A DNA stretch of 60,260 bases, from the NCBI RefSeq assembly GCF_000158915.1, contig NZ_GG657754.1, positions 751,745 through 812,004 of the forward strand. The letters run 5' to 3'. Origin of the DNA: Streptomyces himastatinicus ATCC 53653 (lineage in GTDB: Bacteria; Actinomycetota; Actinomycetes; Streptomycetales; Streptomycetaceae). The notes beneath the pieces were generated by a model. The model was given only the letters and a program-made list of their open reading frames with translations. It had not been told where the DNA came from and searched no databases. Shown piece after piece: positions 16,043 through 57,361 of the stretch (position 1 is its first letter; the number at the start of each line of letters is the position of its first letter). The position numbers and the translations under genes were made by a program.

Positions 16043-16075
16043 TATCCGGTGCCCCCGGCACCGCAGGCGGAGGAA

Positions 16076-38987: not shown

Positions 38988-39182
38988 CGGCCCACCACCC
39001 CCGGCCGACAGTGCCCCGGACGGCGTCCGGCTGCTGCGTCACGAGGCACCGGAAGGGACCGAGCTGCACATCGTCGGTGTCCACCTCTACCTCCAGGACG
39101 AGCACGGGCGGATCCTCCTTGGTCTGCGTCACCCCGACTCGGCGTACGCGGGCAATACCTGGCACTTTCTGGCCGTTCATTA
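38984..39182 (+). pseudogene. NUDIX hydrolase A, 5' fragment (interrupted by element 1)
   Basis: The frame encodes the front of a NUDIX fold (ELHIVGVHLYLQDEHGRILL, GLRHPDSAYAGNTWHFLA) and stops after two foreign codons (VH, stop). The continuation GHCEREEAISCLVREAKEEA is found 9.1 kb away at 48263, so the gene was split exactly between LA and GH. The likely GTG start at 38984 overlaps the MFS stop, but it is out of frame with the NUDIX part by one base in a C5 run near 39000. Either a sequencing slip or further decay explains that. Confidence 0.82.
39170..39175. repeat. Left junction core TGGCCG of element 1
   Basis: This six-base sequence is shared with the right junction (48260-48265). It belongs to the NUDIX codons CTG-GCC-G, so it is either the crossover core or a target-site duplication. 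Confidence 0.6.
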
Positions 39183-39204
39183 GGCAAGTCGGCTGTCGGA
39201 ACAG
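39176..39204. repeat. Imperfect terminal inverted repeat, left end of element 1
   Basis: TTCATTAGGC...GGCTGTCGGAACAG pairs with the reverse complement of the right end, TTCTCTAGGC...GAGTTGTCGGTTCAG. The match is strongest at TTCNNTAGGC and TGTCGG. It is suggestive rather than strict. Confidence 0.5.
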
Positions 39205-39593
39205 CAGTTGTCGGGAACTCCCAGGCGTGAGTGGATCGTCCTGCCTGGGCATGACCGGCAACATCCGTAGACCTGTGCGACGAAGGGCCGTCTCCTCCCT
39301 GCGGGCTGGAAGGGACGGCCCTTCGACCTCGCCGAGCGATGCTGGCCATGGCGTTCGGATGGCTGACTTGCTTGCAGCACGGAGGTAGGCGAACCCCCGG
39401 TTGTCGAAATTGCGGTCCAGACAACGTCTGCAGTGGGGGGCGGGGGACACAGCGAGATCGCCGAGCGACTACAGGTGGCGAAGCCACGGCCGTGGACTGG
39501 TTGCCGCTGACCGCCGTCGTTTCCTCCCAAACTTGTTGGAACATCGGCGCATCGGTACGTTGCTCATCACTGAGTCCGGGGGAGGAGCCCGTC
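39205..39593. other. Leader region of element 1 cargo
   Basis: About 390 bases without a supportable gene; an open frame from 39339 looks non-coding until the TTG at 39594. It should contain the promoter for the pentapeptide-repeat gene. No clear -35/-10 pair or hairpin stood out. Confidence 0.35.
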
Positions 39594-40769
39594 TTGACAC
39601 GCGGCAGGTGGTCGACACAACTACGGGCAGCGGTCACGTTGATCGTGGTGCTCGTTGTCGCCGTAGGTATCTCATTCCTCCTCCTTCAATGGGTTCCGCA
39701 TCGGCTCGCCGATGCGGAAGCGAAGCAGTTGAAGCCGTCTGAGCGCCTCACTCACCTGAACAACGTGCGCGGCATGGTCCTACAGACGGCAGCCGGACTG
39801 GCCGTCCTCGGAGGGCTCATCTACACAGCCCGTGGATACGTACTCTCTCGGCAGAGCCAGATCACGGACCGCTATGCCAGCGCCGTCAGTCAATTGAGCA
39901 GCGAATATCTCGACGCTCGTCTAGGCGGAGTGTTTGCTCTTCAAAGGCTGGCCGGCGATTCCCGGCACGACGTGGCCTCGATCACGCAGGTGCTCTCCTC
40001 GTTCATTGTGCGTCGCCGTCCAGTTACGGGGTCGACTCAGAGTTGGCGCATGACCTCGCCCGAGAGAACAGGCCAGCTAACACAAGGTCCCAGGCCAGAG
40101 GCCGACGTGCAAGCGGCACTTGATGTACTCGGCTCGATGAGACGGACAACTCGCGCCGAATTGGCTGAGTCCGATCTGAGAGGCGCCGAGTTACAAGGTC
40201 TGTCGTTCGAACGAGGGGACATGCGTCGCTGCCTTCTGCGGGGAAGCAACCTGCGTCAAGCCATCTTGCGTGAGGCGGAACTCGACGGCACAGACCTCAG
40301 AGGCGCTCGCCTCGACGGCGCCGACCTTACGGGTGGCCGCCTCTCACGGACCGATTTGCGTGGGGCAGAGATCAAGGAGGCCACGTTCACGGACTGCTCA
40401 CTGTCTTCAGCCCGTCTGGACGATGCTTGGGCGTCGTCGGTCTCCCTGCGACGGGCGGATCTTTTCTCCGCGAGACTTGACGGTGCGCGGTTGGATGGTG
40501 CCGATCTACGTGACGCAACGTTGATCAACGTAAGCCTTGTACGGGTCGATCTGACGGGAGCCGACCTGTCGGGGGCTGACGTGTACGGTGCCGACTTCAC
40601 AGGCGCTGTGCTTGTCGCCGCTGACCTCAGGTCCGTCCAATCACTCACCCCCGAACAGTTGAATTCAGCCGTGTTGGGCCAGCTGACGCGCCTGCCCGCC
40701 GAATTTACACACCTCTTGGACGACCGAGCCATGCCTGACGATCCTGGCACCGGCATCGTGATCATTTGA
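39594..40769 (+). CDS. Membrane-anchored pentapeptide-repeat protein
   Basis: I chose TTG 39594 because GGAGGAG lies six bases upstream and the protein then starts MTRGRWSTQLRAAVTLIVVL (391 aa). Two membrane segments (about 9-31 and 62-80) are followed by a helical linker (RYASAVSQLSSEYLDARLGG). From about residue 190 there is a long series of A(D/N)LxG-type pentapeptides (for example ADLTGGRLSRTDLRGAEI, ADLSGADVYGADFTGAVL). These fold as a right-handed beta helix. Family members are common in Streptomyces and mostly of unknown function; some pentapeptide proteins mimic DNA. It is cargo of element 1, 11 bases upstream of the EccC-like gene, and its base composition is less GC-rich than the surrounding chromosome. 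A defence or immunity role is possible but unproven. Confidence 0.82.
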   Translation: MTRGRWSTQLRAAVTLIVVLVVAVGISFLLLQWVPHRLADAEAKQLKPSERLTHLNNVRGMVLQTAAGLAVLGGLIYTARGYVLSRQSQITDRYASAVSQLSSEYLDARLGGVFALQRLAGDSRHDVASITQVLSSFIVRRRPVTGSTQSWRMTSPERTGQLTQGPRPEADVQAALDVLGSMRRTTRAELAESDLRGAELQGLSFERGDMRRCLLRGSNLRQAILREAELDGTDLRGARLDGADLTGGRLSRTDLRGAEIKEATFTDCSLSSARLDDAWASSVSLRRADLFSARLDGARLDGADLRDATLINVSLVRVDLTGADLSGADVYGADFTGAVLVAADLRSVQSLTPEQLNSAVLGQLTRLPAEFTHLLDDRAMPDDPGTGIVII

Positions 40770-40780
40770 CGGAGATTTAG

Positions 40781-42103
40781 TTGAGCGCCGAGACAACACA
40801 GCCCCCGCCTGGTTCGGATCTATCCCACACCAGTATCACCGGAAGCTCATCGACAGTCCGAACGTTCGTCCGCCAGCCACGGGTCCTTCCGTCACCCGTC
40901 CCTGGAGACTCCGTGGCGCTACGACCGCCTCCCGTTTACGGGGACCGCACTTGGACGCAGAAATGGCGACAACCAGTACTGTTGGCCGCTCCGGGCATTC
41001 TTTCCTCTGCTGCACTAATCCTAACTGCGAATGGCACGGCTACTCGGCTTGCTGGTTTCTTAACCCTCGTGTCCGGTGTCGCCATCGCGCTCGTTGTCGC
41101 ATTGATGCATAGTTCAGATGGCGATGTCGCACATACAACCCAACAGCGACGAGCGTACCTCCGCTACCTAACCGACACGCGTCGGCAGCTGCATCGGACG
41201 GCTTCGCTACAGCGGGAAGCACAGCTGCGGTTGCATCCGGAGCCGTCAGAATTGCGCGCCGTCATAGCTCGCCGGGGACAGCTGTGGGAGAGGACGCACG
41301 AAGACGAAGATTTCGTCCAGGTGCGGGTTGGCACCGGGCCTCAGTCCCTCGCCACGACGCTGGTGGCTCCGGCTATTCCCGCGGGATCCGACCCTGTATG
41401 CGCCGATGGTCTGGCTTCACTGATGCAGGAGTACAGAACCTTGGCGGAGCTCCCTATGGCCGTTAGTCTCCGCGCGTTTCACCATATTCACGTGTGCGGC
41501 ACCAATGAGGAACGCATCCGTAATCTCGTACGAAGCATGGTGGCACAGTTGGTGACCCTTCACGGGCCTGATGAAGTCCGTGTGCTGGTCTACGCTCCCG
41601 TAGCGCGTTCTGATGAGTGGGAATGGATCGATTATCTGCCGCATGTCAGGCCGCTTCCCGATGATGAGCTACCTACACTCATAACTGGCTTGGCCGACGA
41701 CTCGACGAGCTTCACCCAGCTCTTGACCGGAATCCACGGCCGGGCCCCGTTCAGCAGGGAAGATTTTGAAGGGTCACCCCTATGCCCGCATGTTCTTGTC
41801 GTGTGCGACACCCTGCCCATTCCGTCAGAGGCCGAATGGCTTCTGAGTGAGGGGCGAATGGGAGTCACTCTCATCAGGCTTGCCCCGGACACTCAGGGGG
41901 GCACAGCCGTTGGATTGGAATTCACAGTCACTGACGAGGACTTGAGCTTGGAAACCCCCAACGTCAGATACGTGGGACAGCCCGATGCCCTGACGAGCCG
42001 CCAAGCGGTCCGTCTTGCCCGTGACCTATCAGGTTTCCGCCTTGCGGACTGCCGAGACGAAACAGGAAATCAGGCCGGTCACGACGACATTCCGTCGCCT
42101 TGA
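40781..42103 (+). CDS. EccC-like N-terminal domain protein lacking FtsK/SpoIIIE ATPase domains
   Basis: This 440-aa protein starts at a TTG with GGAG about 7 bases upstream. After a proline-rich lead it has two adjacent membrane segments (about 66-107), then QQRRAYLRYLTDTRRQLHRT, RGQLWERTHEDEDFVQVRVG, TGPQSLATTLVAP and LPMAVSLRAFHHIHVCGTNE. Later come VRVLVYAP, EWEWIDYLPHVRPLP and PHVLVVCDTLPIP. That order matches the cytoplasmic N-terminal region of EccC, the motor of type VII secretion. The protein ends (QAVRLARDLSGFRLADCRDE) where EccC would begin its ATPase domains; no Walker motif is present. It may be a truncated gene or a free-standing regulator or decoy of a T7SS. It appears co-transcribed with the pentapeptide-repeat gene. 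Confidence 0.72.
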   Translation: MSAETTQPPPGSDLSHTSITGSSSTVRTFVRQPRVLPSPVPGDSVALRPPPVYGDRTWTQKWRQPVLLAAPGILSSAALILTANGTATRLAGFLTLVSGVAIALVVALMHSSDGDVAHTTQQRRAYLRYLTDTRRQLHRTASLQREAQLRLHPEPSELRAVIARRGQLWERTHEDEDFVQVRVGTGPQSLATTLVAPAIPAGSDPVCADGLASLMQEYRTLAELPMAVSLRAFHHIHVCGTNEERIRNLVRSMVAQLVTLHGPDEVRVLVYAPVARSDEWEWIDYLPHVRPLPDDELPTLITGLADDSTSFTQLLTGIHGRAPFSREDFEGSPLCPHVLVVCDTLPIPSEAEWLLSEGRMGVTLIRLAPDTQGGTAVGLEFTVTDEDLSLETPNVRYVGQPDALTSRQAVRLARDLSGFRLADCRDETGNQAGHDDIPSP

Positions 42104-42146
42104 CCAGCCCCATGGGGCCGATGGACGTTTCGGTTCGTAAGTACGG

Positions 42147-42584
42147 TCACCGACGAGCTGATCGCCGCCGCGGGGCGGGGAGACGGGTGACGTTCCCGGA
42201 TTGCCCTAGCTCCTCACGGGCCCGGTCGAGCTCCAGTTCAAGTTCGGCAATGATCCGGCGCAGTGCGGTGGTGACGGCGTGCTCTCTGGCCAAGGCGTCC
42301 GTCGCGTCCGCCAGCTTCTTCTTCAACTCCGCATTCCGATCGGCCAATTCCTGCACTGCGGCCGGAGTGCACTGCTGTGCCTTAGCGCGGGCCTGGAACT
42401 CTTCAACGAGGTCTCTATGGTCACCGTAGGTGACGTCTCGCCGCAGTCCGGACTCGCGCAGCAACTCGGTGGCGGTGAGTTTGCCGGAGGCGGACCGCAG
42501 GGGTGTGCCGGCCAGGAGGCGGTCGGCGGCGGCCCGCAACGCGGCGCGCTCGGCTTGTTTGTCCCGGCGTCGTCGGCTGGTCAT
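42147..42584 (-). CDS. DUF6262/TnpC-like coiled-coil transposon accessory protein
   Basis: This 145-aa basic protein has an N-terminal Arg/Lys-rich segment (MTSRRRRDKQAERAALRAAA), a small helical DNA-binding-like part (KLTATELLRESGLRRDVTYG) and a coiled coil (AVQELADRNAELKKKLADAT through LELELDRAREEL). This matches the small accessory protein that accompanies multi-recombinase elements, comparable to TnpC of Tn554. Its ATG overlaps the stop of the upstream recombinase by four bases. It likely helps orientation or efficiency of recombination. Confidence 0.75.
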   Translation of the reverse strand: MTSRRRRDKQAERAALRAAADRLLAGTPLRSASGKLTATELLRESGLRRDVTYGDHRDLVEEFQARAKAQQCTPAAVQELADRNAELKKKLADATDALAREHAVTTALRRIIAELELELDRAREELGQSGNVTRLPAPRRRSARR

Positions 42585-44731
42585 GTGGTCCCCTTCCCAG
42601 CGTCAGTGACGCCGTGATGACCTCGGTGGCGGTCAATGATTTGCGAAAGCTGCTCGGCCTGGGCCTCCGCGCGGTCCCGTCGCGGCTTGGGGGCCAGCGG
42701 GTCGGCCGCTTGGGCCCGATGCACCTCAAGCCGGCGCTCCACATCGGCGATGTCGCGGTCGGTGTAGGCGAGGTTGGTGCACGAAGACCGGCACTCCGAT
42801 TCGTCCGGGGCGTCGTCGTCCGGCAGTCCGAGTGCGAGCTTGGCCTTTCGGCAGGCGGCCGCGGCCGCGCGCCATACGCAGGTCATGCCCTGCCCGTGGT
42901 AGATCGCGGGATCAGTCTGCTCCAGGAGGCGTTCCGCATTGCCAGCACTGGTCACCACCCGGCCTGCGAACGACGCGGTGCGCTCCACACGGGCCCGGTA
43001 CTCGTCGGCGGCGGGGCCGCTGACGTGCTCACCGGCAGCGAGGCGCTCGCTGTCCTGTTCAACCTGATCGATGATCAGCTCTAGCTTCTCCACTGCGACG
43101 TCGTACAGCCAGGAGGGATCGGCGTATCCTGCGTAACTCAGAGTTACTTTTGTATGGACATGCCCGTACTGGAGGGCGGCGGCGATTAGTCCTCGTGGCT
43201 TGCGGACGATGAAGCGGGCGAGGGTGCGGCGGTAGCGGGCGGCGTTGATGCGGCCGGCGGGATCGGTCGGGATGGGGGTGCGGCCGTCCGCCCTGAGGTA
43301 GGCGGAGTTGATCCAGGCGATCAGGTCCTGGATGTCGTCATTCATGGCGCGCCCCTTGCGGGCGTTGCTTGCTGCCGGACGCGTCGTGTGAGCGTTGGTC
43401 AGACTCGCTGGGAAGAGCAACGGCAGATCATGCAGTTCTTCCAGGAGCGCGATGGCCGCGTGGACCACATCGACGACGACCCACGGGCGAAGGGGTTCGG
43501 ATACGTCTGGCTTGTCCGGGACCCGGTCGTATCCTTTGCCGCGGAAGCCGTGGACGAGGAGTTCGCCTGTCGTCTCGTCGGTGTCACGGCATCCGCGGCG
43601 CAGATTGAGGACCTCTCCGGGGCGCATGCCGGAGAGGTAGCAGACCGTGGTGAACAGTGCGGCGGATAGCAGGCGAACCAGGGTGGGGAGTTCCTCGACG
43701 GTGATGGGGTGCTCGCGCCAGGGGCGTCCGTGGACCTGTCCGGTGATCTGGCCGACGCCAGTGAAGGGGACGACAGGCAGGCCGCTGCTAGCGATCACAT
43801 GCAGCATGGGCGCCGACATCTCCTGCCGGAGCCCTTTGGGGATGCCGATGAGCCGTTTGATGTGGCCCTGGTTCATGCTGCCGTCCGCGTGGCCCGGCAG
43901 GGCCACGCCCTGGCGCTGGCAGTGCGCGATGTACCGCTGAAGACGTTCGATTCGGGTGCCGGAGTACCGGGCCTGCGAGTGATGGTTCCCGGCTTCCAGC
44001 TGCTGGTACTCGTGCCAGGCGTCGCGGATGTCTGGGCCGATTTCCTCGATCATCACCAAGGCCCAGGCCAGGAGGGCCTCCATCGTGGCATCCGCGATGC
44101 GCGGAATCTTGTTCTCACGTCCCGTGCCTGCCGGGGCTCCGACGACCTCCTTGGCTGTTTGGCCGGGCCAGGGGAAGTCGCAATCGAGGCGGCATGGGGC
44201 GGGCATGTGCTCGTTGAAGAGCCACAGCAGGCGCACGGCACTGATCAGGTCGGACTTCCGGCGGGCGGTGCGGTCCAGGCCCAGCACGTAGGTGCGGAAG
44301 GTCTCCAGGTCGGCGTCGCGTACCTCGGAGAGATTGCGGAACCCCTGCTTTTCCAGCCAGCAGGCGAGAACTCTCATGTCGATGACCCAATAGGGGAAGC
44401 TACCGACGCTGGCCTGCTCAGCGGGACGCTGCCGTCCTCCCGGTTCCACCGGGACGGGATGGTCCAGGGCGGCCAAGAAGAATGTGCGGAAATGCTGACG
44501 GAACGCGGCCGGGAAGGTGGGCCAGGAAATAGCTGGGATCTGAAGGTGCGCGTCGCGGTGGGCCGGCTGGACGTACCACACCTCGTCGCCGAACCTGGAC
44601 ATGCGTGAGGGGGGTGTGCCGATCCGCACCGGTCGGTTGCGCAGGATGAGGATGTCGTCGGTCGGCCACCAGGGCGCCGTGGCGGGGCCCAGGTCGATTC
44701 CCGGTACGGGCGTGGTCGTGGGGGCGGTCAC
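42581..44731 (-). CDS. Tyrosine recombinase, third subunit of element 1
   Basis: The 716-aa protein starts at GTG 44731, overlapping the stop of the previous gene (GTGA); the longer open frame to 45451 is out-of-frame with coding sequence upstream. Catalytic-domain features are LSGMRPGEVLNLRRG (first Arg), RYRRTLARFIVR in place of the usual HxxR block, and YGHVHTKVTLSYAGYA with the His and probable nucleophile Tyr. A C-terminal Cys-rich part (CVWRAAAAAC; CRSSCTNLAY) could bind zinc. It works with the two other recombinase-like proteins and the DUF6262 protein as one machine, judging from the four-nucleotide overlaps. Confidence 0.82.
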   Translation of the reverse strand: MTAPTTTPVPGIDLGPATAPWWPTDDILILRNRPVRIGTPPSRMSRFGDEVWYVQPAHRDAHLQIPAISWPTFPAAFRQHFRTFFLAALDHPVPVEPGGRQRPAEQASVGSFPYWVIDMRVLACWLEKQGFRNLSEVRDADLETFRTYVLGLDRTARRKSDLISAVRLLWLFNEHMPAPCRLDCDFPWPGQTAKEVVGAPAGTGRENKIPRIADATMEALLAWALVMIEEIGPDIRDAWHEYQQLEAGNHHSQARYSGTRIERLQRYIAHCQRQGVALPGHADGSMNQGHIKRLIGIPKGLRQEMSAPMLHVIASSGLPVVPFTGVGQITGQVHGRPWREHPITVEELPTLVRLLSAALFTTVCYLSGMRPGEVLNLRRGCRDTDETTGELLVHGFRGKGYDRVPDKPDVSEPLRPWVVVDVVHAAIALLEELHDLPLLFPASLTNAHTTRPAASNARKGRAMNDDIQDLIAWINSAYLRADGRTPIPTDPAGRINAARYRRTLARFIVRKPRGLIAAALQYGHVHTKVTLSYAGYADPSWLYDVAVEKLELIIDQVEQDSERLAAGEHVSGPAADEYRARVERTASFAGRVVTSAGNAERLLEQTDPAIYHGQGMTCVWRAAAAACRKAKLALGLPDDDAPDESECRSSCTNLAYTDRDIADVERRLEVHRAQAADPLAPKPRRDRAEAQAEQLSQIIDRHRGHHGVTDAGKGTT

Positions 44732-46596
44732 CGCAGGTCCAGCCTTCCGCTCAGTAGATCGTCGATCAGTGCGCTCTGCCTGTCGGTCAACTTGGCGTGG
44801 GCCTGTTCCCGTTCGGCGGGGGTGTAGTGACGCAGGATGTCCTCCAGCCGGTCGACGGCCGTTTGGTACTTCGCCCGCCAGGTAGCGGGATCGGCGTTGG
44901 GGCGCGTGGCAAGGAGCCGGTCGCGGGCGGCGATCTGGACTGGCAGCTGGTGCGGGAGGGCGCGGGCGTTTTCGCACTGGAGGCAAGCGAAGAACGAGGC
45001 CGTGCACGACATGCCAGGCGGCGTCTCGGGGCCGGAAAGGTGATCGACGCAGCCGGCCAGTACCGTGTCCTGTTCTCCGGTCAGCAGCCTCTTCAGGGTC
45101 TCCGCGTCGAGCCCGGCCTCGACTGCTGCTTCTTCCAGGTTCCGGGTCGCCCTGGCGATGAAATCCGGGGTGAAGACCGGGATGTCCATCGCCGCGCGCG
45201 CCTTCGTCACTTGTCCGCGCAGTGCCTTGCCGACGACGGACCGGCTCTGCTCCTGCACAGTACGGCTGCGCTTGAGGTAGTGATCCCGCAGCGTTTCGCG
45301 GCTGTGCGCGGTCGGGCGCCGCTTGAGTTCCAGCGCTGTCTGCCGGATCCGTCGCACTTGTACGGCGGGCCGTCCGCCGGCGATGGCTTTGCGTAGGGAG
45401 GGGAAGCCCCGCGTCTGGCTCCAGTGCTTCACGTGCACCTCGGCGTTCCACATGTCCCTGGCGAACGCACCACGGCGCTTCGGGCTGTAGCTGATGAAGG
45501 CGCTGGTCTCATTGCTGAGACGGCGGGCGGTCTGCGTGAGCTCCAACAGCAGCTGGTACACCCGAAGCGGAGAGTGGAACAGCCGACGCTCGATGTCCTC
45601 GGAGTCGACCAGATTACACAGTGAGGCGGGGAGGTCCTCGAGCGCCGCGATCATGTGCTCGCGGTCGGGCCCGCGGCGCGGTTTGGTCTCCTCGACCAGC
45701 GCTACCGCCTGCGGTGCCACACCGCCGTCGGGTCGGGTATGCACGGCCGGCCATGCCTTGACGGTGCCGAAGTTCTCCGCGGTCAGCGCGCTCAGCAGCA
45801 GCGCGAAGGCAGTGCACTCGTCACGTGTGAGGCTCAACATGCCGGTGATGGCCATGGCACCGCCGAGCCGGGCAACCTCGTCCCGCAAGGCGCCGGAAGC
45901 GTTCCGTGGCAGATCCCCAGTCGCAGCGAACTCCTCCAGCATCCGTCCGAGGGCCTCCTCCTTGCTCCCCGGTGTGAGTTCACCGCCCCGGGAGCGCTCT
46001 AGAAGACGCGCTCCCGCACGGATGCGGTCCCTGCTGGTGCGGACATCGCGGCGCAGCGCCGTCATGATCTGCTGCCACTCGTCGTCGCTGTACGCCACGA
46101 CTCGGGTTTCCGGCACGGCGGTGGGAAGCCGTGTGCGCAGCAGGTCACGCCGGGCTTCTTCCGTCAGCTCTTCGCTCGCACGCATCAGTCGCCGAAGCGA
46201 CATCAAGTACGTCCGCAGGGTCGTCGGGTGGTCCTCGTACTGATCACGGAATATCTGGAAGTGCGCGGGTGCCAACTCGCTTGGCATCGACGGGACACGG
46301 TCGGCTTCTGACAGCACCGTCATGAAGCGGTGCAGCGTCCAGTGGTACCTCTTCGCCGTCGCCAGGCGCTTGCTGCCGCCGCGCGCACCGCACCGGGTCG
46401 CCACGAGCGCGGCCATCCACTGTTGCATCGCGAGCGGCGCCGGGAAGGACGAGAAATTCAGGACGTGGCTCTTCCCGCTCTGCTCCTCGTAGAAGACCAC
46501 CTCGGTTCGACACCCGCCGTCCGGCAGTCGCTCCGGAGGCTGCCAGCCGGGCGGCGGCTGGGAGGCACGCCGGCCGCCTCGCCCCCGCCCGCTCAC
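44728..46596 (-). CDS. Recombinase-like protein, second subunit of element 1 (diverged catalytic motifs)
   Basis: This 622-aa protein lies between two clear tyrosine recombinases and overlaps each by four bases. The N-terminal half resembles a SAM-like core-binding region (AKRYHWTLHRFMTVLSEADR; PTTLRTYLMSLRRLMRASEE). Late motifs RRIRQTALELKRRPTAHSRE and TLRDHYLKRS resemble the RxxR...GH...Y end of tyrosine recombinases, but the HxxR block is altered. A Cys-containing segment (SCTASFFACLQCENARALP) may be a small zinc site. It is probably a structural or partly active subunit; catalytic competence is uncertain. Confidence 0.75.
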   Translation of the reverse strand: MSGRGRGGRRASQPPPGWQPPERLPDGGCRTEVVFYEEQSGKSHVLNFSSFPAPLAMQQWMAALVATRCGARGGSKRLATAKRYHWTLHRFMTVLSEADRVPSMPSELAPAHFQIFRDQYEDHPTTLRTYLMSLRRLMRASEELTEEARRDLLRTRLPTAVPETRVVAYSDDEWQQIMTALRRDVRTSRDRIRAGARLLERSRGGELTPGSKEEALGRMLEEFAATGDLPRNASGALRDEVARLGGAMAITGMLSLTRDECTAFALLLSALTAENFGTVKAWPAVHTRPDGGVAPQAVALVEETKPRRGPDREHMIAALEDLPASLCNLVDSEDIERRLFHSPLRVYQLLLELTQTARRLSNETSAFISYSPKRRGAFARDMWNAEVHVKHWSQTRGFPSLRKAIAGGRPAVQVRRIRQTALELKRRPTAHSRETLRDHYLKRSRTVQEQSRSVVGKALRGQVTKARAAMDIPVFTPDFIARATRNLEEAAVEAGLDAETLKRLLTGEQDTVLAGCVDHLSGPETPPGMSCTASFFACLQCENARALPHQLPVQIAARDRLLATRPNADPATWRAKYQTAVDRLEDILRHYTPAEREQAHAKLTDRQSALIDDLLSGRLDLR

Positions 46597-48227: not shown

Positions 48228-48229
48228 CC

Positions 48230-48259
48230 TGAACCGACAACTCAGAGGAGCCTAGAGAA
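48230..48259. repeat. Imperfect terminal inverted repeat, right end of element 1
   Basis: Counterpart of 39176-39204. It lies between the start of the first recombinase gene (48227) and the NUDIX 3' half, leaving only about 30 bases for a promoter. Confidence 0.5.
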
Positions 48260-48265
48260 TGGCCG
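48260..48265. repeat. Right junction core TGGCCG of element 1
   Basis: Counterpart of 39170-39175. Downstream codons GGG-CAC-TGC continue the NUDIX reading frame. Confidence 0.6.
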
Positions 48266-48582
48266 GGCACTGCGAGCGGGAAGAGGCGATCAGCTGTCTG
48301 GTGCGGGAGGCCAAGGAAGAGGCCGGGCTGATCATCGAGCCCAGCGCGGCCGAGCTGGTGCACCTCGTTCACCTCGTCGACTCGCCGGGCGCCCGCCCGC
48401 GGATCCAACTCGTCTTCCAGGCTCACTCCTGGTCAGGCGCCCCAGAGATTCGGGAGCCCGAGCGGTGCGTGGAGTGGCGGTGGTGGAGGCCGCAGGATCT
48501 CCCGGCCGAGGTCGTGCCGTACACCCGCCAGGCGATCGACGGCATTCTCGGCGGGCGCCCCTATTCCGCAATGGGGTGGTGA
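48260..48582 (+). pseudogene. NUDIX hydrolase A, 3' fragment
   Basis: The frame opens at ATG 48259 only because the junction created it; the real codons begin at 48260. It contains the NUDIX box GHCEREEAISCLVREAKEEA GL (one residue shorter than canonical before REXXEE), then LVHLVHLVDSPGARPRIQLV and RCVEWRWWRPQDLPAEVVPY. It completes the fold begun at 38984. NUDIX enzymes cleave nucleoside diphosphate-linked compounds; this one is split and cannot work unless element 1 excises. Its stop overlaps the GTG of the HIT gene (48579-48582). Confidence 0.8.
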
Positions 48583-48932
48583 GCGCTGTGGCGCTTCAGC
48601 AACTGCAACCGCAACCGCAACCGGGCAGCGCTTCCTGGCCTGAAGGCTTCCTCGCGTACCGGGCCGGCCGCGGGTGTCCGATGTGCGGCAACGACTGGCG
48701 GTCCGACGACATCGGGTGGGGGGTGTTGCTGCACCGTGGTGAGGTGTCCCAGACCTATCTCTGGCGTTCTGGGCAAGTCCGGGGCGCATCTGGTGCCGCG
48801 CCGCGAGGCGGCCCAGGACCCGGCGCCGGGTGGGCCAGTGCCCTTTGTTCTGCTCGATCACGGCGCCAAGACGAGGTTGTGCTTCAGCGCGATGCCACAG
48901 CCCTGCGACGGATTCTGGAGGGAACGTCATGA
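48579..48932 (+). pseudogene. HIT-family protein remnant (internal deletion and frameshift)
   Basis: The start region WPEGFLAYRAGRGCPMCGND and GWGVLLHRGEVSQTYLWRSG and the end RQDEVVLQRDATALRRILEG are in one frame. The middle (GAHLVPRREAAQDPAPGGPV, PFVLLDHGA) is in another, and roughly 60 residues with the first histidines of HxHxH are gone. The CxxC near the start and the order of blocks fit the HIT proteins that accompany NUDIX and methyltransferase genes in Streptomyces. GTG 48579 overlaps the NUDIX stop, and its own stop overlaps the methyltransferase ATG. Confidence 0.65.
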
Positions 48933-50239: not shown

Positions 50240-50508
50240 CCAATCCCGACGTACCCCTTCCGAGCCCCTCTCCGGAGCAGGCGCCCGTGTCCGCGGCCTC
50301 GGCCACCGACGCGGTCGGGCCGCCGGATGCCTTCGGGCGACCGCCGGTCCGCGCGGCCAGCGTGGTGGAGAAGGGGCGTCCGACTCCGCAGGCGGTGTTC
50401 GGCGCGTGTGCGGTCGTCACCGACGCCGCCAACCGCGTGCTGCTCGGGCGTTCCACGCGTGGCGTGTGGGAGCTAACTGGAGTACGGGCGGGTTCCCTGA
50501 AGGGCTGA
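50236..50508 (+). pseudogene. NUDIX hydrolase B, 5' fragment (interrupted by element 2)
   Basis: It starts at GTG 50236 (overlapping the methyltransferase stop) with a proline-rich lead, then AVFGACAVVTDAANRVLLGR and STRGVWEL, after which foreign codons (TGVRAGSLKG, stop) follow. The expected continuation PGGRIETGESAQAAAVRELA is found at 57140. The gene was therefore cut just before the conserved PGG of the NUDIX box. Confidence 0.82.
50487..50500. repeat. Terminal inverted repeat, left end of element 2
   Basis: GGCGGGTTCCCTGA matches the reverse complement of 57119-57132 at 13 of 14 positions. It starts about 11 bases inside the NUDIX junction. Confidence 0.65.
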
Positions 50509-50621
50509 TCGGCGCGTCGTTCCATTTCAGCTGGCAGGAGGCTCGATGGGCTCGATTAGCGGCCTCTCCGGATGTTGGGCCGTTCTCCTGAATTTCAGGA
50601 CTCACTGCAGTAATTTCAACG

Positions 50622-51810
50622 TCTATGGCAGATCCCGGGACGCGCGTGCTCTCCCTCGTACCGCCTCCCAGCGAACCGTCGGCCGCAGAGGTGAGTCGCT
50701 GGGAGGCGAGCCGGGGCTGAGCGATGTGCTGTTGCTGCAGCGCCGGTACGCAGGCGGGGCGGACGAGGAAGACGAGCAGCTGTTCTTCATGGACGCGCTG
50801 GTCGAGTACCAGTGGGCGCGAGATGTGGCGGGCCTGGCGTCTTCCACCCTGGACGGGCTGACGAAGCCAGTGATCGAGGTGTGCGACCACTACGGTGTCG
50901 TACCGTGGCGGCTGACGCCGCGCCACGTCGACGGCTACTTCGCCGGGGTCGGCAAACGCCAGGCCCGACGGTGCGATCGAAGCTGAACCGGATCGACCAC
51001 TTCTTCGCATTCCTGGAGCAGCGCTACGCGCACGAGATCTTCCAGCGGTTCGGGGCGGCGGTCGAGTCGCCGGTCGATCCGTTCAACCGACACGCACACC
51101 GCGGTGACTTCGGCCTGCGAGTGCCACCGTCGGCCCGGGCGGTCAACGAGTTCTTCGCCGGTTGGCGGCGGGAGCTGGCGCACGCCCGCAAGGAGGCGGT
51201 GGCGTGCAGGGACTACGTGATGGCGAAGTTGATCTACATCTCCGGGGTACGGGCTTCGGAGCTGTGCCAGATGCGCATGAAGGACCTCCACTGGGAGGCC
51301 GGCGACTTCGGGCGGTTCCTCGTCCAGGGCAAAGGAGCCCGAGGGTCGGGGCCGCGACAGCGCGAGGCGTTCCTGTTCGCCGAGGGGCGTGAGTTGCTGT
51401 GGTGGTACGTGGAGGAAGTCCGCGGGTTGTTCTCGGACGACCCGGAGCACCCTGAGTCGCCGGTGTGGCCCTCGGAGCGCCTGGCACGAGATCTTGGGGG
51501 CATGCCGAATCCTGTCGGCCCGGCGGTGACGACGTCGACGCTACGGAAGGCGCTGGCGAGAGCCTCGGAGGCTCACCTGGCAGGTCCGGTCGAGCGGATC
51601 TTTCCTCATCTGCTTCGGCATGCTTGTGCCACACACCGTTACGAGGCGGGGATGTCGCTGTGGGAGGTGCAGAAGTTGCTCGGTCATGACTGGACGACGA
51701 CCACGGTTCGGTACATTTTGTCCGCTCAGAGCGATCCAGAGATGGCCAGCCGACGTTCGTCGGCTCGGGCCGCACAGCGACTGCGCGTGGACACGGGGGG
51801 TCTGTCGTGA
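50622..51810 (+). pseudogene. Tyrosine recombinase of element 2 (two frameshifts)
   Basis: Starting at ATG 50622 (MADPGTRVLSLVPPPSEPSA) the frame breaks at a G4 run near 50716, resumes with LSDVLLLQRRYAGGADEEDE and ALVEYQWARDVAGLASSTLD, breaks again near 50965 (C3 run after GKRQ), and resumes PTVRSKLNRIDHFFAFLEQR. The catalytic domain is complete: GVRASELCQMRMKDLHW (Arg), HLLRHACATHRYE (HxxR), LLGHDWTTTTVRYILS (His, Tyr). Each break is fixed by one added base in a homopolymer, so this is either two sequencing slips in an intact integrase or real decay. It overlaps the next gene (GTGA). Confidence 0.8.
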
Positions 51811-52142
51811 AGTGGAACCTGCGGTGGGCGGCGGCCAACCGAGGCATCTGGAGGCCCAGTGATCTGATGCCCGTGTTCAAAGAAGTCGGCTTCAATCCGT
51901 CGGTGTCGAAGGTCTCCGCGCTCTGGTCGGGCACACCGGTAACGGTGCGGTTGGATGACCTGGACCTGATCTGCGCTGCTCTTCAGTGCACGGTCGCCGA
52001 TCTGCTCGTCGCCGAACCTGTAGCCGGGGAAACGCCGGTGGCCCAGGACGAGGGGCTCGCGACGGCTGCGGGTGAGTCGCCCAGGCCGGTTCCGCGCCGG
52101 TCCACCGGGGCGGGGCGGCCCAGGTCGCTCCCACCGAATTGA
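51807..52142 (+). CDS. Small Xre/Cro-like helix-turn-helix protein
   Basis: This 111-aa protein begins MKWNLRWAAANRGIWRPSDL and continues MPVFKEVGFNPSVSKVSALW, VTVRLDDLDLICAALQCTVA and DLLV, a compact Cro-type helix-turn-helix. The last 35 residues are a low-complexity Pro/Arg tail. It starts in the recombinase stop codon and is followed two bases later by the next GTG, so the three genes form one transcript. It is likely the repressor or directionality factor of element 2. Confidence 0.78.
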   Translation: MKWNLRWAAANRGIWRPSDLMPVFKEVGFNPSVSKVSALWSGTPVTVRLDDLDLICAALQCTVADLLVAEPVAGETPVAQDEGLATAAGESPRPVPRRSTGAGRPRSLPPN

Positions 52143-52143
52143 G

Positions 52144-54426
52144 GTGACCCCAAGACGAAAGCGCCTGCCCTCGCTGGGGCAGTGCGCCGGCTGCCTCGGC
52201 TGGGGGCTGCGGGTCCAGTCACCGTTCTGCTCCCCCTGCCACCAGTGGCGCTCCAAACGGAACCACCCGGAGGGCCAGTGCAGACGGTGCAAGCGGCTGT
52301 GGCGCATCAACGACGAAGGCTTCTGCCGGGCGTGTGTCGTAGCTGTCACCGAGTACGACGCGGCCTGGTACTTCGAACCCGCACAGGCCGCAGAGCAGCC
52401 GACATGGACCCAGCTCGCGTTCTGTCTGCCCGCTTCCGTCCGTCGGCCTGCCCTGCCCACCGGTACCTACCGCCTGCAGACTGACGGCCGCTACCACGCA
52501 CCTGGCTGGGCACGCGCCCAGCGCCCCGCCCTCGTCGTGGACGACAAGCGGATCTGTCCGCAGGCAGTGCGTGGACAGGTGGCCCTGTTCCCTGCGCCGT
52601 ACCGGCTGTTGGAGCGTCACGCCATCGCGATCCGCGGCCGACTCCAGGGCGATCTGACTCGACTCAAACCACTGGTTGATGAAGTACAGGCCGAGCACCG
52701 CCTGGGGCGCAGCTGGCGCGTCAGTGCCATGGACGCGATGGCCCTTGCGCTGGCCGCCCGCGACGCAGCAGGCCAGGACCTGGTCGACGCCGTCATCCTT
52801 GACGCCCTGCCTCACCAACCTGCCGGAGTCACCAGGGTCCTGAACAAGGCCGGCCTGCTTGCCTCGGACCTGGACCACGCGGTGGCTGTCCTGCCGCACT
52901 CCCAGCGGCCCCGCTCCCAACCTCAGCCACGAAGCTGCGATCACTGCCTTTCGTGGGGCCGAAACCAGGTATGCGACGCCTGTAGACACTGGCGGCGCAA
53001 ATACGCTGACCAGCGGGGACGTTGCGGACGATGTGGCGCCGGGCCGCTTCCCCTGCAGAACGGACGGTGCCGCGACTGCACTCGACAACGCCTTCAACTG
53101 GGTCCTGACACCGATACCGGTACCTGGCGACAACTACGGTTTGCCGGACCATCCTTGGCAGGTGGCAGCGCGACCCGTCGCGACCTCCTCGCGGATCGCC
53201 CGGGGGTCAGTCCGCCAGTCGTACTTACTGGCCAGGCGACGATCTTCGAGGTCGAGCGGGACTGGCGCCCGCTGGCCGGAGCCCTGCTGCCAGCCCCGCT
53301 ACCTCCGGTGAAGGCCCTGCTGGCGGACTTCGCCCGGTACACCACCGAGAATCGCTGGAACCAGCAGGTCCACGAGCCCATGGCTCGGGTTCTACGAGTG
53401 GCCGCCACCTGGCTGGGTGCCGACACCGTCTTCCGCGAGGATGAGCTCCGGGCGCTGCACCGCGTGTTCGGCGGCAAGGGTCGCATTCGCGGGCTTGTCG
53501 CCTTCCTGGACCAACGCGAACAGCTCGTCCCCTCGCCCCCGCGGCGCAACCGCGACGAGGCATTCGTCCAGCGCACCATCGCCGCCTTCCCTCCACGAAT
53601 CAGCGACGAACTCGGCACGTGGGTCGGGGTTTTGCGCGGTGTCAGCAGGTCCCACCACCGCGTCACCGACTACGCCACCATGCGCCGCTACCTCATCTAC
53701 CTGGCCACACCACTTGCTGACTGGACCACCCGCTACACCACCTTGCGTCAGGTGACGGAGGCTGACATCACGGCCACTGTCACCGCGGTCAAAGGCCCAC
53801 GCGCCCACGAGCGCGCTGTGGCGGTCCGGTCGCTCTTTCGAGCTCTGAAACACGCCACCGTCTTCCTCGACCCCACTCGCGGCCTCCGCATCACCCGTCA
53901 GGAACTGTTGCCCACCACCCTGGCCCCCGGCCGGCCGGCCGGGCTCTTGGAGACCAGCTCCAACCCGGCTACCCGTCTGGTTCTCGCCTTGGTCGCCCTC
54001 CACGCAACAAGCGGCACCGACCTGCGCAACCTCGTCCTCTCCGATGTGCTGCTTACCCGACGGCAACTTTTGATCCGCCGCCCCCACGGCCGTCACGTCG
54101 TCCACCTCGACGACACCACAGCTGACCTGCTGCACGCCTGGCTCCGCTACCGTCACCGGCGTTGGCCACGCACCGTCAACTCACACCTCCTCGTCACTCA
54201 ACAGACCGTCAGCGCGACCGATCCTGTCTGCGCGGACTACGTCTACAGGCGCTTCGATCCCGCCGGTCTGACTCTGCGCGCTGTTCGCGCCGACAGAATC
54301 CTGGACGAGGCCCGCGAGTCCGAAGATCCCGTCCACCTCGTCCGTGTCTTCGGAATCTCCATCACCACTGCCATGAAGTACATCCACGCTGCCCACCCCC
54401 ACCGCGCCGGCCCTGTTCCTCACTGA
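52144..54426 (+). CDS. Zinc-ribbon plus recombinase-like protein of element 2
   Basis: This 760-aa product starts at GTG 52144 (VTPRRKRLPSLGQ), two bases after the previous stop. The N-terminus carries a row of CxxC pairs (QCAGC, FCSPC, QCRRC, FCRAC). A second similar row follows in the middle (SCDHC, VCDAC, RCGRC, RCRDC). The C-terminal third has a tyrosine-recombinase-like fold: YATMRRYLIYLATPLADWTT, ALHATSGTDLRNLVLSDVLL (first Arg), and HLVRVFGISITTAMKYIHAA with a Tyr at the end. The HxxR block is not evident, so catalysis is doubtful. It is probably a DNA-binding partner of the upstream recombinase. Confidence 0.75.
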   Translation: MTPRRKRLPSLGQCAGCLGWGLRVQSPFCSPCHQWRSKRNHPEGQCRRCKRLWRINDEGFCRACVVAVTEYDAAWYFEPAQAAEQPTWTQLAFCLPASVRRPALPTGTYRLQTDGRYHAPGWARAQRPALVVDDKRICPQAVRGQVALFPAPYRLLERHAIAIRGRLQGDLTRLKPLVDEVQAEHRLGRSWRVSAMDAMALALAARDAAGQDLVDAVILDALPHQPAGVTRVLNKAGLLASDLDHAVAVLPHSQRPRSQPQPRSCDHCLSWGRNQVCDACRHWRRKYADQRGRCGRCGAGPLPLQNGRCRDCTRQRLQLGPDTDTGTWRQLRFAGPSLAGGSATRRDLLADRPGVSPPVVLTGQATIFEVERDWRPLAGALLPAPLPPVKALLADFARYTTENRWNQQVHEPMARVLRVAATWLGADTVFREDELRALHRVFGGKGRIRGLVAFLDQREQLVPSPPRRNRDEAFVQRTIAAFPPRISDELGTWVGVLRGVSRSHHRVTDYATMRRYLIYLATPLADWTTRYTTLRQVTEADITATVTAVKGPRAHERAVAVRSLFRALKHATVFLDPTRGLRITRQELLPTTLAPGRPAGLLETSSNPATRLVLALVALHATSGTDLRNLVLSDVLLTRRQLLIRRPHGRHVVHLDDTTADLLHAWLRYRHRRWPRTVNSHLLVTQQTVSATDPVCADYVYRRFDPAGLTLRAVRADRILDEARESEDPVHLVRVFGISITTAMKYIHAAHPHRAGPVPH

Positions 54427-54494
54427 GGCAGACGGCCGCCCCCGGGAAGCACGTGCACCCCCAAACAGCGTCACTCCAGGACCCTGAGCTGCCT

Positions 54495-55289
54495 TCACGA
54501 TGGCGGCAGCTCAGTTTTGAGTCTCTCGGCAGGCACTCGCTCGATGCGGGTCCAGCCCCTCCAGCCCCGCTCCTCCAGAATCGCCAACAGCCGCGCGGCG
54601 TGCGGTGAGGACTCGACCATGGTTGAGTCCAGCAGGTCGACAAACTGATCGTCGATGCCGTCATCGGCATCGACCTCGCCGGCCTCCACAGCGCGAACCA
54701 TCAAGCGCTCCATGATGTCGGCGACCTCGACGATCCGCGGATCGTCGGCCGGCCAGTCGAGTGCCCCGCTGAGAAGGCTGTAGAGCTTCACCATCTCGGG
54801 GTCGTCCAGCTCCTCGTGCTTCTTGGCGATCACGGAGTCGATCGAATGCGGCACCTGGGCGGCGATCATGATCCAGGCGTCCCGCTCCATCTCGATGTAC
54901 CGCTCCTCAACGCCGAGACCGCGCAGCCGGTCGAGGTAGTCCACAACGCTCTGCGGGAGCGCCAGGTGCTCTCCGGCGGCGAGCCTGGCGAGTCGGCTGC
55001 GAGTGTTCTGCAGCCGCCGGATCTCGGCATGCAGGGCCTTGTCGATCTCCTGGACGCCGCCGGCGAACACCTCCGGGCCGGCGTCGAGGAGCTCCTGCAC
55101 CCGGGCCAGCGGGACGCCGGCGTCTGCGAGGGTGCGGATCCGGATCAGTCGCACGACCGCGACGGCGTCGTAGATCCGGTATCCGGACCGGTCGCGCTCG
55201 GGCTCCGGCAGCAACCCGATCCGGTGGTAGTGGCGTACCGCCCGCACCGTCACCCCGGCGTACGCCGCAAGCTGGCTGATGGTGAGCAT
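54495..55289 (-). CDS. MerR-family transcriptional regulator
   Basis: This 264-aa protein has an N-terminal MerR winged helix (MLTISQLAAYAGVTVRAVRH, YHRIGLLPEPERDRSGYRIY), a dimerisation coiled coil (IDKALHAEIRRLQNTRSRLA) and a C-terminal effector domain of about 140 residues. It is third on the minus strand after the ATPase and permease genes, with a 15-base gap, so it is co-transcribed with the exporter it likely controls. A matching operator is present ahead of the ATPase gene. It probably senses a drug-like ligand of the pump. Confidence 0.9.
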   Translation of the reverse strand: MLTISQLAAYAGVTVRAVRHYHRIGLLPEPERDRSGYRIYDAVAVVRLIRIRTLADAGVPLARVQELLDAGPEVFAGGVQEIDKALHAEIRRLQNTRSRLARLAAGEHLALPQSVVDYLDRLRGLGVEERYIEMERDAWIMIAAQVPHSIDSVIAKKHEELDDPEMVKLYSLLSGALDWPADDPRIVEVADIMERLMVRAVEAGEVDADDGIDDQFVDLLDSTMVESSPHAARLLAILEERGWRGWTRIERVPAERLKTELPPS

Positions 55290-55304
55290 GGGTCTCAGAC
55301 TGCC

Positions 55305-56066
55305 TCAGGCGATCTTCCGGCGATAGGCGGCCATCGCGAAGATGTACGCCACGACGAGGATGCCGACGCACCACGCGAGGGCGGTCCAGATGTCGTCACC
55401 GACCGGCTGCTGGGCGAACAGGTTGCGGATCGTGTTGACGATCGACGTCACCGGCTGATGTTCGGCGAACCAGCGCACCGGGCCGGGCATCGTCTTTGTG
55501 GGCACGAAGGCCGAACTGACGAACGGCAGGAAGATGAGAGGGTAGGCGAACGCGCCCGCTCCCTCGACCGACGACGCAGAGAGCCCGGGAATCACGGCGA
55601 GCCAGGTCAACGCCAGGGTGAACAAGAACAGGATGCCGGCGACCGCGAGCCATGCCGACACTCCTGCCCCGGAGCGGAAGCCCATGAGCACAGCGACGCC
55701 CACGACGAGCACGAGAGCGATCAGGTTGGCGACCAGAGAGGTGACGACATGGGCCCACAGCACACCCGACCGAGCGATCGGCATGGACTGGAATCGCTCG
55801 AAGATCCCGCTCTTCACATCGGTGAACAGCCGGTACGCGGTGTAGGAGATGCCTGAGGCGATGGTCATGAGCAGGATGCCGGGCAGCATGTAGTTCACAT
55901 ACGAAACCGACCCGGTATCGATGGCGCCGCCGAACACGTAGACGAACATCAGCATCATGGCGACCGGCGTGATGGCGGTCGTGATGATGGTGTCCATGCT
56001 GCGTGTGACATGGCGCAGGGTCCGCCCCGTGAGCGCGACAGTGTCGTTGAAGAAGTACGCGTTCAT
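55305..56066 (-). CDS. ABC-2 type transporter permease (DrrB-like)
   Basis: This 253-aa membrane protein has six hydrophobic segments (for example MDTIITTAITPVAMMLMFVY, YMLPGILLMTIASGISYTAY, LIALVLVVGVAVLMGF) and the ABC-2 motif FQSMPIARSGVLWAH. Its ATG overlaps the ATPase stop by four bases. It would form the channel of a drug or natural-product exporter together with the ATPase. Confidence 0.9.
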   Translation of the reverse strand: MNAYFFNDTVALTGRTLRHVTRSMDTIITTAITPVAMMLMFVYVFGGAIDTGSVSYVNYMLPGILLMTIASGISYTAYRLFTDVKSGIFERFQSMPIARSGVLWAHVVTSLVANLIALVLVVGVAVLMGFRSGAGVSAWLAVAGILFLFTLALTWLAVIPGLSASSVEGAGAFAYPLIFLPFVSSAFVPTKTMPGPVRWFAEHQPVTSIVNTIRNLFAQQPVGDDIWTALAWCVGILVVAYIFAMAAYRRKIA

Positions 56067-56872
56067 CCTCGTCCCCCAGTTGTCGTGCCAGTGACTTCGC
56101 TCTTGTCGATGCCCCCGATGACTGCGAGGAAGATCTCCTCGAGAGTCGGCTGCTTCTCGACGTACTCGACCTTGGCGGGCGGGAAGAGCTGCTTAAGCTC
56201 GGCGAGGGTGCCGTTCACGATGATCCGCCCCTGGTGGAGGATCGCGATCCGGTCGGCCAATTGCTCGGCCTCTTCCAGGTACTGCGTGGTGAGCAGCACC
56301 GTCGTTCCGTGGCCGGCGAGCTCCTTGACCGCATGCCACACCTCGATGCGCGCCTCGGGGTCGAGTCCGGCCGTCGGCTCGTCCAGGAAGATCACCGGCG
56401 AATTCCCGATGAGGCTCATCGCGATGTCCAGTCGGCGGCGCATCCCACCCGAGTACGTGGACACTCGCCGTGCGCCCGCCTCGCTCAGCGAGAAACGCCT
56501 GAGCAGGTCATCCGCGATCGCGCCCGGGTCCTTGAGGTGGCGCAGCCTGGCGACGAGGGCGAGGTTCTCCCGACCGCTGAGGATCTCGTCGACGGCCGCG
56601 AACTGTCCGGTGAGACTGATGGACTCCCGCACGTCCGCCGGGTGCGTGGCGACGTCGAAGCCATTGACGCTCGCCGTCCCCGCGTCGGCTTTCAGAAGTG
56701 TGGCGAGGATCCTCACGGTCGTGGTCTTGCCCGCCCCGTTGGAACCGAGCAGGGCAAAGATGCTGCCCGGCGCCACGTCGAAGTCCACACCGCGCAGCAC
56801 TTCGAGCTTCCCGTACGACTTCTTGAGACCTTGCACGCGAATCGCCGGACCGGCGATCGATTGGGCTGTCAT
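56063..56872 (-). CDS. ABC transporter ATP-binding protein (DrrA-like)
   Basis: This ATPase of about 269 aa has Walker A GSNGAGKTTTVRIL, the signature YSGGMRRRLDIAMSL, Walker B VIFLDEPTAGLD and the H-loop region TTQYLEEAEQL, followed by the short DrrA-type C-terminal domain. ATG 56872 lies nine bases after AGGAGG; ATG 56878 (two codons earlier) is only three bases from it and less likely. It energises export through the DrrB-like permease and heads the ATPase-permease-MerR operon. Confidence 0.92.
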   Translation of the reverse strand: MTAQSIAGPAIRVQGLKKSYGKLEVLRGVDFDVAPGSIFALLGSNGAGKTTTVRILATLLKADAGTASVNGFDVATHPADVRESISLTGQFAAVDEILSGRENLALVARLRHLKDPGAIADDLLRRFSLSEAGARRVSTYSGGMRRRLDIAMSLIGNSPVIFLDEPTAGLDPEARIEVWHAVKELAGHGTTVLLTTQYLEEAEQLADRIAILHQGRIIVNGTLAELKQLFPPAKVEYVEKQPTLEEIFLAVIGGIDKSEVTGTTTGGRG

Positions 56873-56940
56873 GGTCATCTGCCTCCTTCGTGGAGCTGTT
56901 CCAGGCGACTGCGCGGAAGCTCCTCCGGAAGGATGGAGGG

Positions 56941-56961
56941 TTGACCCAGCGTCAAGGTCAA
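56941..56961 (-). promoter_or_regulatory. MerR-type operator/promoter of the exporter operon
   Basis: The minus strand reads TTGACCTTGACGCTGGGTCA A, a TTGACC-N9-GGTCAA inverted repeat overlapping a -35 hexamer. This is the layout MerR activators use, binding between -35 and -10. It lies about 70 bases ahead of the ATPase start. Confidence 0.65.
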
Positions 56962-57118
56962 GCCCGCTCCGACCACGGCATCCAGATCGCCGGTCAGTCA
57001 GACACATCGCAGCGATGACGAACCGCTTCCCCCGAGCTCATTCGGCCGCGAACCCTCCATACTCATAGACTTCGGTGAACCACTCACGCGTGGGTTCGTG
57101 CGACTCCCCGGCCAGAAA

Positions 57119-57132
57119 TCAGCGAACCCGCC
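57119..57132. repeat. Terminal inverted repeat, right end of element 2
   Basis: TCAGCGAACCCGCC, counterpart of 50487-50500, ends about 7 bases before the resumed NUDIX codons. Confidence 0.65.
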
Positions 57133-57133
57133 T

Positions 57134-57361
57134 GCTTCGCCCGGCGGTCGGATCGAGACCGGCGAGTCGGCCCAGGCCGCGGCCGTACGGGAACTGGCCG
57201 AGGAGACTGGTCTGAAAGCCAGCCTCGACGACGCGCACCTGCTGACGATGCTCCACGACGACCGCGCCGATGACGGAGCGCGTTCGCACCTCCTGAGACT
57301 CGCCCAAGAGTCTCGAGCCCCTGCCGGTCTCCTGGAGAGAGAAAACCGCCGACTGTGTTAA
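57134..57361 (+). pseudogene. NUDIX hydrolase B, 3' fragment (truncated)
   Basis: The frame contains PGGRIETGESAQAAAVRELA and EETGLKASLDDAHLLTMLHD, which complete the NUDIX box left open at 50475 (GX5EX7REXXEEXG is intact across PGGRIE...EETG). After about 57300 the sequence no longer looks like NUDIX (QESRAPAGLLERENRRLC, stop), so the gene has also lost its C-terminal third. Confidence 0.75.

Follow-up and report, generated by a model that had tools for sequence, protein, structure and literature searches.

Integrases are usually thought to use tRNA genes, or one single-copy gene, as their sites, and inteins and homing endonucleases use conserved gene motifs as landing sites because these vary little; an intein removes itself by splicing and leaves the product of its gene intact. 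The genomic islands called GInts, which carry ginABCD (Bardaji et al. 2017, PMC5385486), insert site-specifically, with an inferred 6-nt staggered exchange, at the start or end of genes including those for an ABC transporter, ssb and ribonucleotide reductase, and their authors think complete inactivation of the target unlikely. GInts less than 35% identical to one another share ssb, at its end or its beginning, which is the closest precedent we found for convergence of distant elements on one target. The strand-biased circularizing integrative elements (SEs) are, in the accessible part of their description, reported only from Gammaproteobacteria (PMC10214605), while an actinobacterial class related to Tn554, with Streptomyces hosts, pairs one short with one abnormally long recombinase of 611-828 residues (PMC3414803). 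Here we describe two integrative elements, E1 and E2, that break two NUDIX genes of one small operon within a stretch of 60,260 nucleotides of Streptomyces himastatinicus ATCC 53653 (contig NZ_GG657754.1, positions 751,745 to 812,004; the whole stretch is called the window).

Both elements sit in NUDIX-box codons, and their predicted tyrosine recombinases probably recognise the DNA encoding this motif as their attachment site. This differs from the insertions described for GInts, as E1 breaks its target gene inside the catalytic motif of multi-copy enzyme families. It also differs from inteins, as E1 and E2 disrupt the genes they enter and are found across many paralogues. In the literature searched, which lay outside preprints and most subscription journals, we found no account of elements that target the NUDIX box or other active-site codons. 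The use of an enzyme superfamily's catalytic motif as a site, with the gene broken and with clades switching from motif to motif, appears to be new.

Insertion sites in the two NUDIX genes

The window lies in an 11.03-Mb genome, and the closest relatives of its E1 recombinase with a named host come from Streptomyces. The small operon has the order NUDIX-A, a short open reading frame (ORF), a PCMT-like methyltransferase gene and NUDIX-B, with E1 in NUDIX-A and E2 in NUDIX-B. The NUDIX box has the consensus GX5EX7REUXEEXGU, and its positions G2, E7, E16, E19 and E20 were invariant in the NUDIX alignment. The N-terminal half of NUDIX-A (38983..39175, forward strand, its exact start codon being uncertain) closes with the 6-bp core TGGCCG (39170-39175), and its C-terminal half (48260..48582, forward strand), which matches PF00293 from profile position 35, opens with the same core (48260-48265). 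Between them stand the 9,084 bp of E1 (39176..48259), with the imperfect inverted-repeat ends TTCATTAGGC / GCCTAGAGAA; like ends occur on both sides in seven of the loci fetched from other genomes (numbered with an L; here L093-L096, L098, L109 and L116). The N-terminal half of NUDIX-B (50236..50474, forward strand) ends GVWEL, and is followed by AACTGG (50475..50480, forward strand), a left core identical in the close copies L126, L127 and L128, and then by the 6.66-kb E2 (50481..57138, ends AGTACGGGCGGGTTC / GAACCCGCCTGCTT). At the right junction, the C-terminal half of NUDIX-B (57139..57361, forward strand) opens with the target core GCCCGG (57139-57144), and is shorter than its homologue in L126.

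The initial annotation had placed both breaks within a few codons of the first glycine of the NUDIX box. The junctions are now exact and the breaks fall within 2 bases of one another, while its outer coordinates, 39170-57148, were correct to about 10 bases. On NUDIX-B, the E1-type core, taken from the NUDIX-B homologue interrupted in L102, is offset by 2 bp from the E2 core. Uninterrupted sites, which the annotation had suggested seeking in relatives, were found for both genes. The stretch between the elements was compared with 392 genomes of the genus, the window's own included, and of the 275 that matched, 30 loci were fetched. NUDIX-A is uninterrupted in eight of these (L003-L007, L009, L023 and L028), the BLAST halves meeting at the break and, in seven loci, sharing all 6 bp of the core, and NUDIX-B is uninterrupted in two (L013 and L017). 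As relatives carry both genes uninterrupted, the halves of each were once joined. Within the window, the short ORF between NUDIX-A and the methyltransferase gene (48582-48932) spans more than one frame, and the locus may be decaying.

If the elements are active at present, E1 would excise as a circle with its ends joined as GCCTAGAGAA-(6 bp)-TTCATTAGGC, and strand exchange would take place in a 6-bp core that starts at base 2 of the codon lying two before the box glycine, runs through the codon after it and closes with base 1 of the glycine codon itself. For E2, recombination would use a core, probably also of 6 bp, that lies 2 bp upstream of that of E1; its own AACTGG would stay at the left junction, and the target core would come to lie at the right one.

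Recurrence and change of target among relatives

E1A, the tyrosine recombinase of E1, was searched for in the same 392 genomes (126 matched, 30 loci fetched) and in a species-representative collection (34 loci). Copies of both elements were picked by similarity to the window's recombinases, and the proportions describe near relatives only. The count took in 17 distinct copies whose E1A is at least 61% identical and which have an end that could be read; L034 and L035 were left out, as their flanks repeat those of L096 and L097. Fifteen of the 17 break the same NUDIX-box codon in the same phase: the window's own, L033, L036, L092-L097, L102, L103, L115, L116, L122 and L146. A Pfam NUDIX match was obtained for all 15 C-terminal halves tested, a set that includes the more distant Frankia locus L109 and leaves out L146. 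Besides the window, the left and right junctions of seven loci (L093-L096, L098, L109 and L116) were set side by side, and an identical core (CCGGCG or CGGGCG) stands at both in L093-L096 and L116. Joining the flanks gives read-through of the NUDIX box in the window, L093, L094, L096 and L109; for L095 and L116 the script returned a different, longer frame. In L109 (Frankia sp. R82, 9973-19183) an E1-type element lies reversed in a NUDIX gene, its far end bordering the C-terminal half and its start end the N-terminal half. The two junction cores of L109 are inversions of one another (CCTCCG / CGGAGG), which would be expected were the donor core to stay at one junction. Spurious or unsure ends of L041, L042, L108, L114 and L120, found by regular expression only, were set aside, and a better end was found for L114.

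E2A, the tyrosine recombinase of E2, matched in 200 of the same 392 genomes, and 30 loci were fetched. In all four copies of at least 92% identity (the window's own and L126, L127 and L128, which are L063, L064 and L065 refetched as larger regions) both ends lie in the NUDIX box: the gene stops in the codons WEL, WAL or LFL ahead of PGG, and restarts at PGG. The E2 of L128 is 90% identical to that of the window over its whole length of 6.67 kb, in a different NUDIX gene. As close relatives occupy the same spot in other NUDIX genes, the conserved-motif DNA is likely to be the docking site. The DNA sequence of a catalytic motif is retained throughout a large gene family, and such a motif would hence probably offer many docking places in every host, which may be the selective reason for its use.

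Below approximately 61% E1A identity, the target gene of E1 relatives changes clade by clade. APH-like phosphotransferase genes are interrupted in L037, L104, L110-L113 and L123, with Pfam matches above the cut-off for L113 and L123 and below it for L110; the L104 target had no Pfam match, and its label comes from its place in the tree and inspection by eye. SNase genes are interrupted in L099-L101, L105 and L107 (Pfam support for L100 and L101), pRiA4b ORF-3-like genes in L106 and L121 (for L106), and DnaE genes in L038 and L118 (for L118). Six loci have Competence/ComEC targets, L053 by Pfam (PF03772, Competence) and the others by eye. These distant E1A relatives (33-35% identity; L046, L052-L055 and L059) lie inside a ComEC/Rec2-like gene, just before what we take to be its metallo-beta-lactamase motif. 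In single loci, targets were read by eye as DprA, RapZ or helicase genes. In an E1A tree of 43 rows, with ten target labels ('unread' counted as one), the targets follow the tree, requiring 10 changes against a minimum of 9 and a shuffled mean of 26.8. NUDIX targets arise at three points of the tree, namely in a clade of 11, in L036/L103 and in the Frankia locus L109. All E1 relatives in the tree with a named host are Actinomycetota. The sister clades of E1 seem to have settled in the same way on motifs of other enzymes.

Among plasmids, nine E1A regions were fetched out of 40 rows listed among 197 matching records. They comprise one NUDIX target (L146), three APH-like ones (L148, L150 and L152) and one read by eye as RapZ-like (L153), with no gene assigned for L147 and L149, and L151 and L154 lacking a readable end. 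In the plasmids of L148 and L152 (locus 1348-2929), the APH-like gene split by the E1 relative adjoins a NUDIX gene and a major facilitator superfamily gene, in a similar neighbourhood. The E1-relative locus L104 also has sequences like E2A (40% identity) and E2B (53%), the latter being the protein encoded after E2A.

Distant E2 relatives lie in Tn3 transposase genes (L072 and L077, with right sides read in L134 and L135), GGDEF-like genes (L075 and L082, with a by-eye motif at both ends of L136), Y-family polymerase genes (L079 and L088), Mom genes (L071 by Pfam, L074 by eye) and a ligase gene (L085); 16 of the 26 have no assigned target gene. Pfam gave no match for the GGDEF-like targets L075 and L082 or the methyltransferase-like target L084. 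In the E2A tree, non-NUDIX labels are less clade-bound than those of E1, with Tn3, Mom and polymerase needing two changes each. One plasmid region, L155, was scanned for E2 and had no readable end. As distant relatives sit elsewhere, the NUDIX preference of E2 is a trait of a shallow clade.

The initial annotation had proposed the NUDIX box as attachment site and expected many copies in NUDIX-box codons. This stands for the close relatives of each element, although for E2 the support consists of four close copies only; it does not extend to the whole families, within which NUDIX is a subclade trait. Homologous elements outside NUDIX genes do occur, in E1 sister clades and in E2 relatives at 61-68% identity.

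Contrary evidence and alternative explanations

Several observations weigh against recognition of NUDIX-box DNA. Firstly, the copies were picked by similarity, and the counts are therefore no random sample. Secondly, L098, a close E1 copy, interrupts a radical-SAM gene in its CX3CX2C motif, between GCNFSC and RMCYL; L157 is an E1A fragment (75% identity over 114 residues) whose adjoining DNA has no assignable gene, and the fragments L124 (75%), L048 (60-62%) and L158 (75-82%) lack a readable end. Thirdly, the NUDIX record of E2 consists of four near copies, of which two interrupt NUDIX-B genes homologous to each other, and the other 26 E2A loci (61-68% identity) yield no clean NUDIX case; L091/L129 (the same place) was rejected as a NUDIX insertion, as its left side is NUDIX and its right side Tn3 transposase. 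Fourthly, E2A appears frame-broken in the window, meaning E2 may be immobile there. Fifthly, although the E1 and E2 recombinase sets appear barely comparable (E1A against E2A gave a profile probability of 24% over 86 columns, E 8e-4, and all other E1-E2 protein pairs were below 18%), recombinase-type pairs within E1 score no higher, and the profile comparison therefore says little beyond 'distant'. Finally, the word TGGGANCTNCCNGGNGG is matched twice in the window's genome, each time within a NUDIX gene, but its backwards control is matched three times, meaning the number of matches is not raised and only their location is out of the ordinary.

Three of these loci have further features. The ends of the L098 element lie at approximately 9960 and 17204, and its junction cores differ (ACTGCC and GCTGCA). 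L157 has an E1-type end at approximately 2390 and a short E1A remnant, which may be a decayed copy or mark another target. The E2-like element of L129, standing between a NUDIX N-terminal half and a Tn3 transposase, is perhaps a recombinant of two copies.

Some of this evidence would suit recognition of a short G+C-rich DNA word, such as CTGCCCGGCGG, with the NUDIX genes incidental: E1 sister clades lie in other genes, as do distant E2 relatives, including in a Gly-rich region of Tn3 transposases, and the backwards control matches as often. Nevertheless, we consider this unlikely. NUDIX accounts for approximately 0.1% of the window's genome (27 Pfam matches in 11.03 Mb, two of them the window's halves), yet NUDIX boxes hold 15 of 17 close E1 copies and all four close E2 copies, and the two occurrences of TGGGANCTNCCNGGNGG are both in NUDIX genes. 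Nor is there a constant word at the cores in NUDIX genes, which include TGGCCG, TCGCCG, CCGGCG, CGGGCG, CCGGTG, CGGGTG, CGTCGG and CGTCCG. The distinction is partly a matter of wording, because recognition must be of DNA.

The elements could instead form a regulated on/off switch, with programmed excision restoring the NUDIX genes. The open NUDIX frame recovered in five of the seven NUDIX copies with rejoined flanks would fit such a system, but it is very improbable given the shortened C-terminal half of NUDIX-B, the apparently frame-broken E2A, the ORF ahead of the methyltransferase gene that spans more than one frame, cargo that is unrelated, and relatives of the elements in several gene families. 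Common descent, in which old insertions were inherited with their NUDIX genes and the copies are not independent, gains something from the homology of some target genes: at 60% identity, five MutT-like halves cluster together, and L036/L103, L122/L146 and the E2 targets of the window and L126 are also homologous. However, the E1A proteins of L092 and L115 are 81-88% identical to that of the window, whereas their target halves are only 54-59% identical to its own, and the 16 target halves (with L109 and L146) fall into eight groups at 50% identity, 10 at 60% and 13 at 70%; the eight groups already hint at a conflict between the trees of the NUDIX halves and of E1A. With relatives having uninterrupted genes, and the same E2 in different NUDIX genes, we regard shared inheritance as exceedingly improbable. 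That two insertions merely happened upon NUDIX genes of one operon is scarcely credible, for although the window itself shows only two events, relatives of both elements repeat the position.

Gene content and comparison with described elements

The recombinase genes of E1 lie on the reverse strand. E1A (46593..48227, 544 residues), which starts 32 bp inside the right end, matches PF02899 and has HxxRH and Y motifs by eye. E1B (44728..46596, 622 residues) has a predicted tyrosine-recombinase fold, although Foldseek alone gave no significant match for it. E1C (42581..44731, 716 residues) is a predicted tyrosine recombinase, with SGMRPGEVL and a C-terminal GH...Y motif by eye and no Pfam match; the gene at its position in L146 is annotated 'integrase'. 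E1D (42147..42584, 145 residues), the small fourth protein of the operon, has no Pfam match, and tblastn matches in 24 loci at 50-74% identity. The cargo, on the forward strand, comprises a pentapeptide-repeat protein (39339..40769; PF00805, E 7.6e-44) and a 440-residue protein (40781..42103) without a Pfam match. PADLOC gave no match for either cargo protein, nor for E1B, E1C, E1D or E2C.

E1 resembles the GInts in having three recombinase-type genes and a small fourth gene, in one operon by gene layout, at one end, and in having its cargo right after the fourth gene; the E1 cargo ORFs (39339-42103) lie on the opposite strand, with 43 bp separating their end from that of E1D. GInts are flanked by imperfect direct repeats of 10-17 nt, whereas the E1 junctions repeat only the 6-bp perfect core. 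GInts have a short AT-rich far end; in the window, G+C content is 66% at 39000-39499 and 58-65% in the blocks of 39500-42499, and that of host blocks is 72-73% (38500-38999 and 49000-50499) or 68% (57500-58499). The order E1A-E1B-E1C-E1D also resembles the intA-tfp-intB-srap order of the SEs (PMC10214605). As in E1, the two parts of a split attB persist at the SE junctions, and the joint has a spacer of 6 bp with imperfect inverted repeats around it; one SE junction retains the donor core. The SE record from Gammaproteobacteria contrasts with the Actinomycetota hosts named for E1 relatives in the tree. Hence E1 is organised like GInt and SE elements in its gene plan, and we claim its membership in neither.

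The genes of E2 begin with E2A, its open C-terminal part (50812..51810, forward strand) matching PF00589 (E 1.1e-20). This gene occupies two frames over 50621-51810 and so appears frame-broken, as it is also in L128, with one 403-codon frame (stop to stop) in L126 and L127. It is followed on the same strand by E2B (51807..52142), a Cro/C1-type helix-turn-helix protein (HTH_26), and E2C (52147..54426, 759 residues), which has paired cysteines and a predicted tyrosine-recombinase fold (XerA, Foldseek E 2.9e-7), from a model with a mean pLDDT (predicted local distance difference test) of 64 and a pTM (predicted template modelling score) of 0.32. The cargo, a MerR regulator, an ABC-2 permease and an ABC ATPase, lies on the reverse strand (54495..57007), and L128 has matching DNA over the whole element.

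This plan resembles that of the Tn554-related actinobacterial class, in pairing a short recombinase with the 759-residue E2C, a recombinase by fold prediction, and differs in the Cro/C1-type protein between the two. In the accessible text on that class, the only target site given is Tn554's unique one (PMC3414803). E2C has a 26.5% match over 64% in NC_008539.1 from Arthrobacter sp. FB24; the FB24 entry listed in PMC3414803 has a different accession.

Active-site motifs of enzyme superfamilies may form a general class of attachment site, taken up repeatedly by at least two distant multi-recombinase families and switched clade by clade between the NUDIX box, radical-SAM CX3CX2C, kinase-like HxDxxxxN loops, SNase, GGDEF and other invariant motifs; we hold this broader proposal to be somewhat favoured by the evidence. 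If true, each element would have tens of landing places per genome, across phyla. It seems that entire enzyme superfamilies can act as sites, and that two barely comparable recombinase sets settle 2 bp apart in the same motif. The evolution of recombinase specificity from motif to motif becomes testable, and elements of this kind can be sought, along with their cargo, by a rule based on sequence, such as a search for split catalytic motifs. Their recombinases might also be directed at chosen motif codons in a wide range of genomes.

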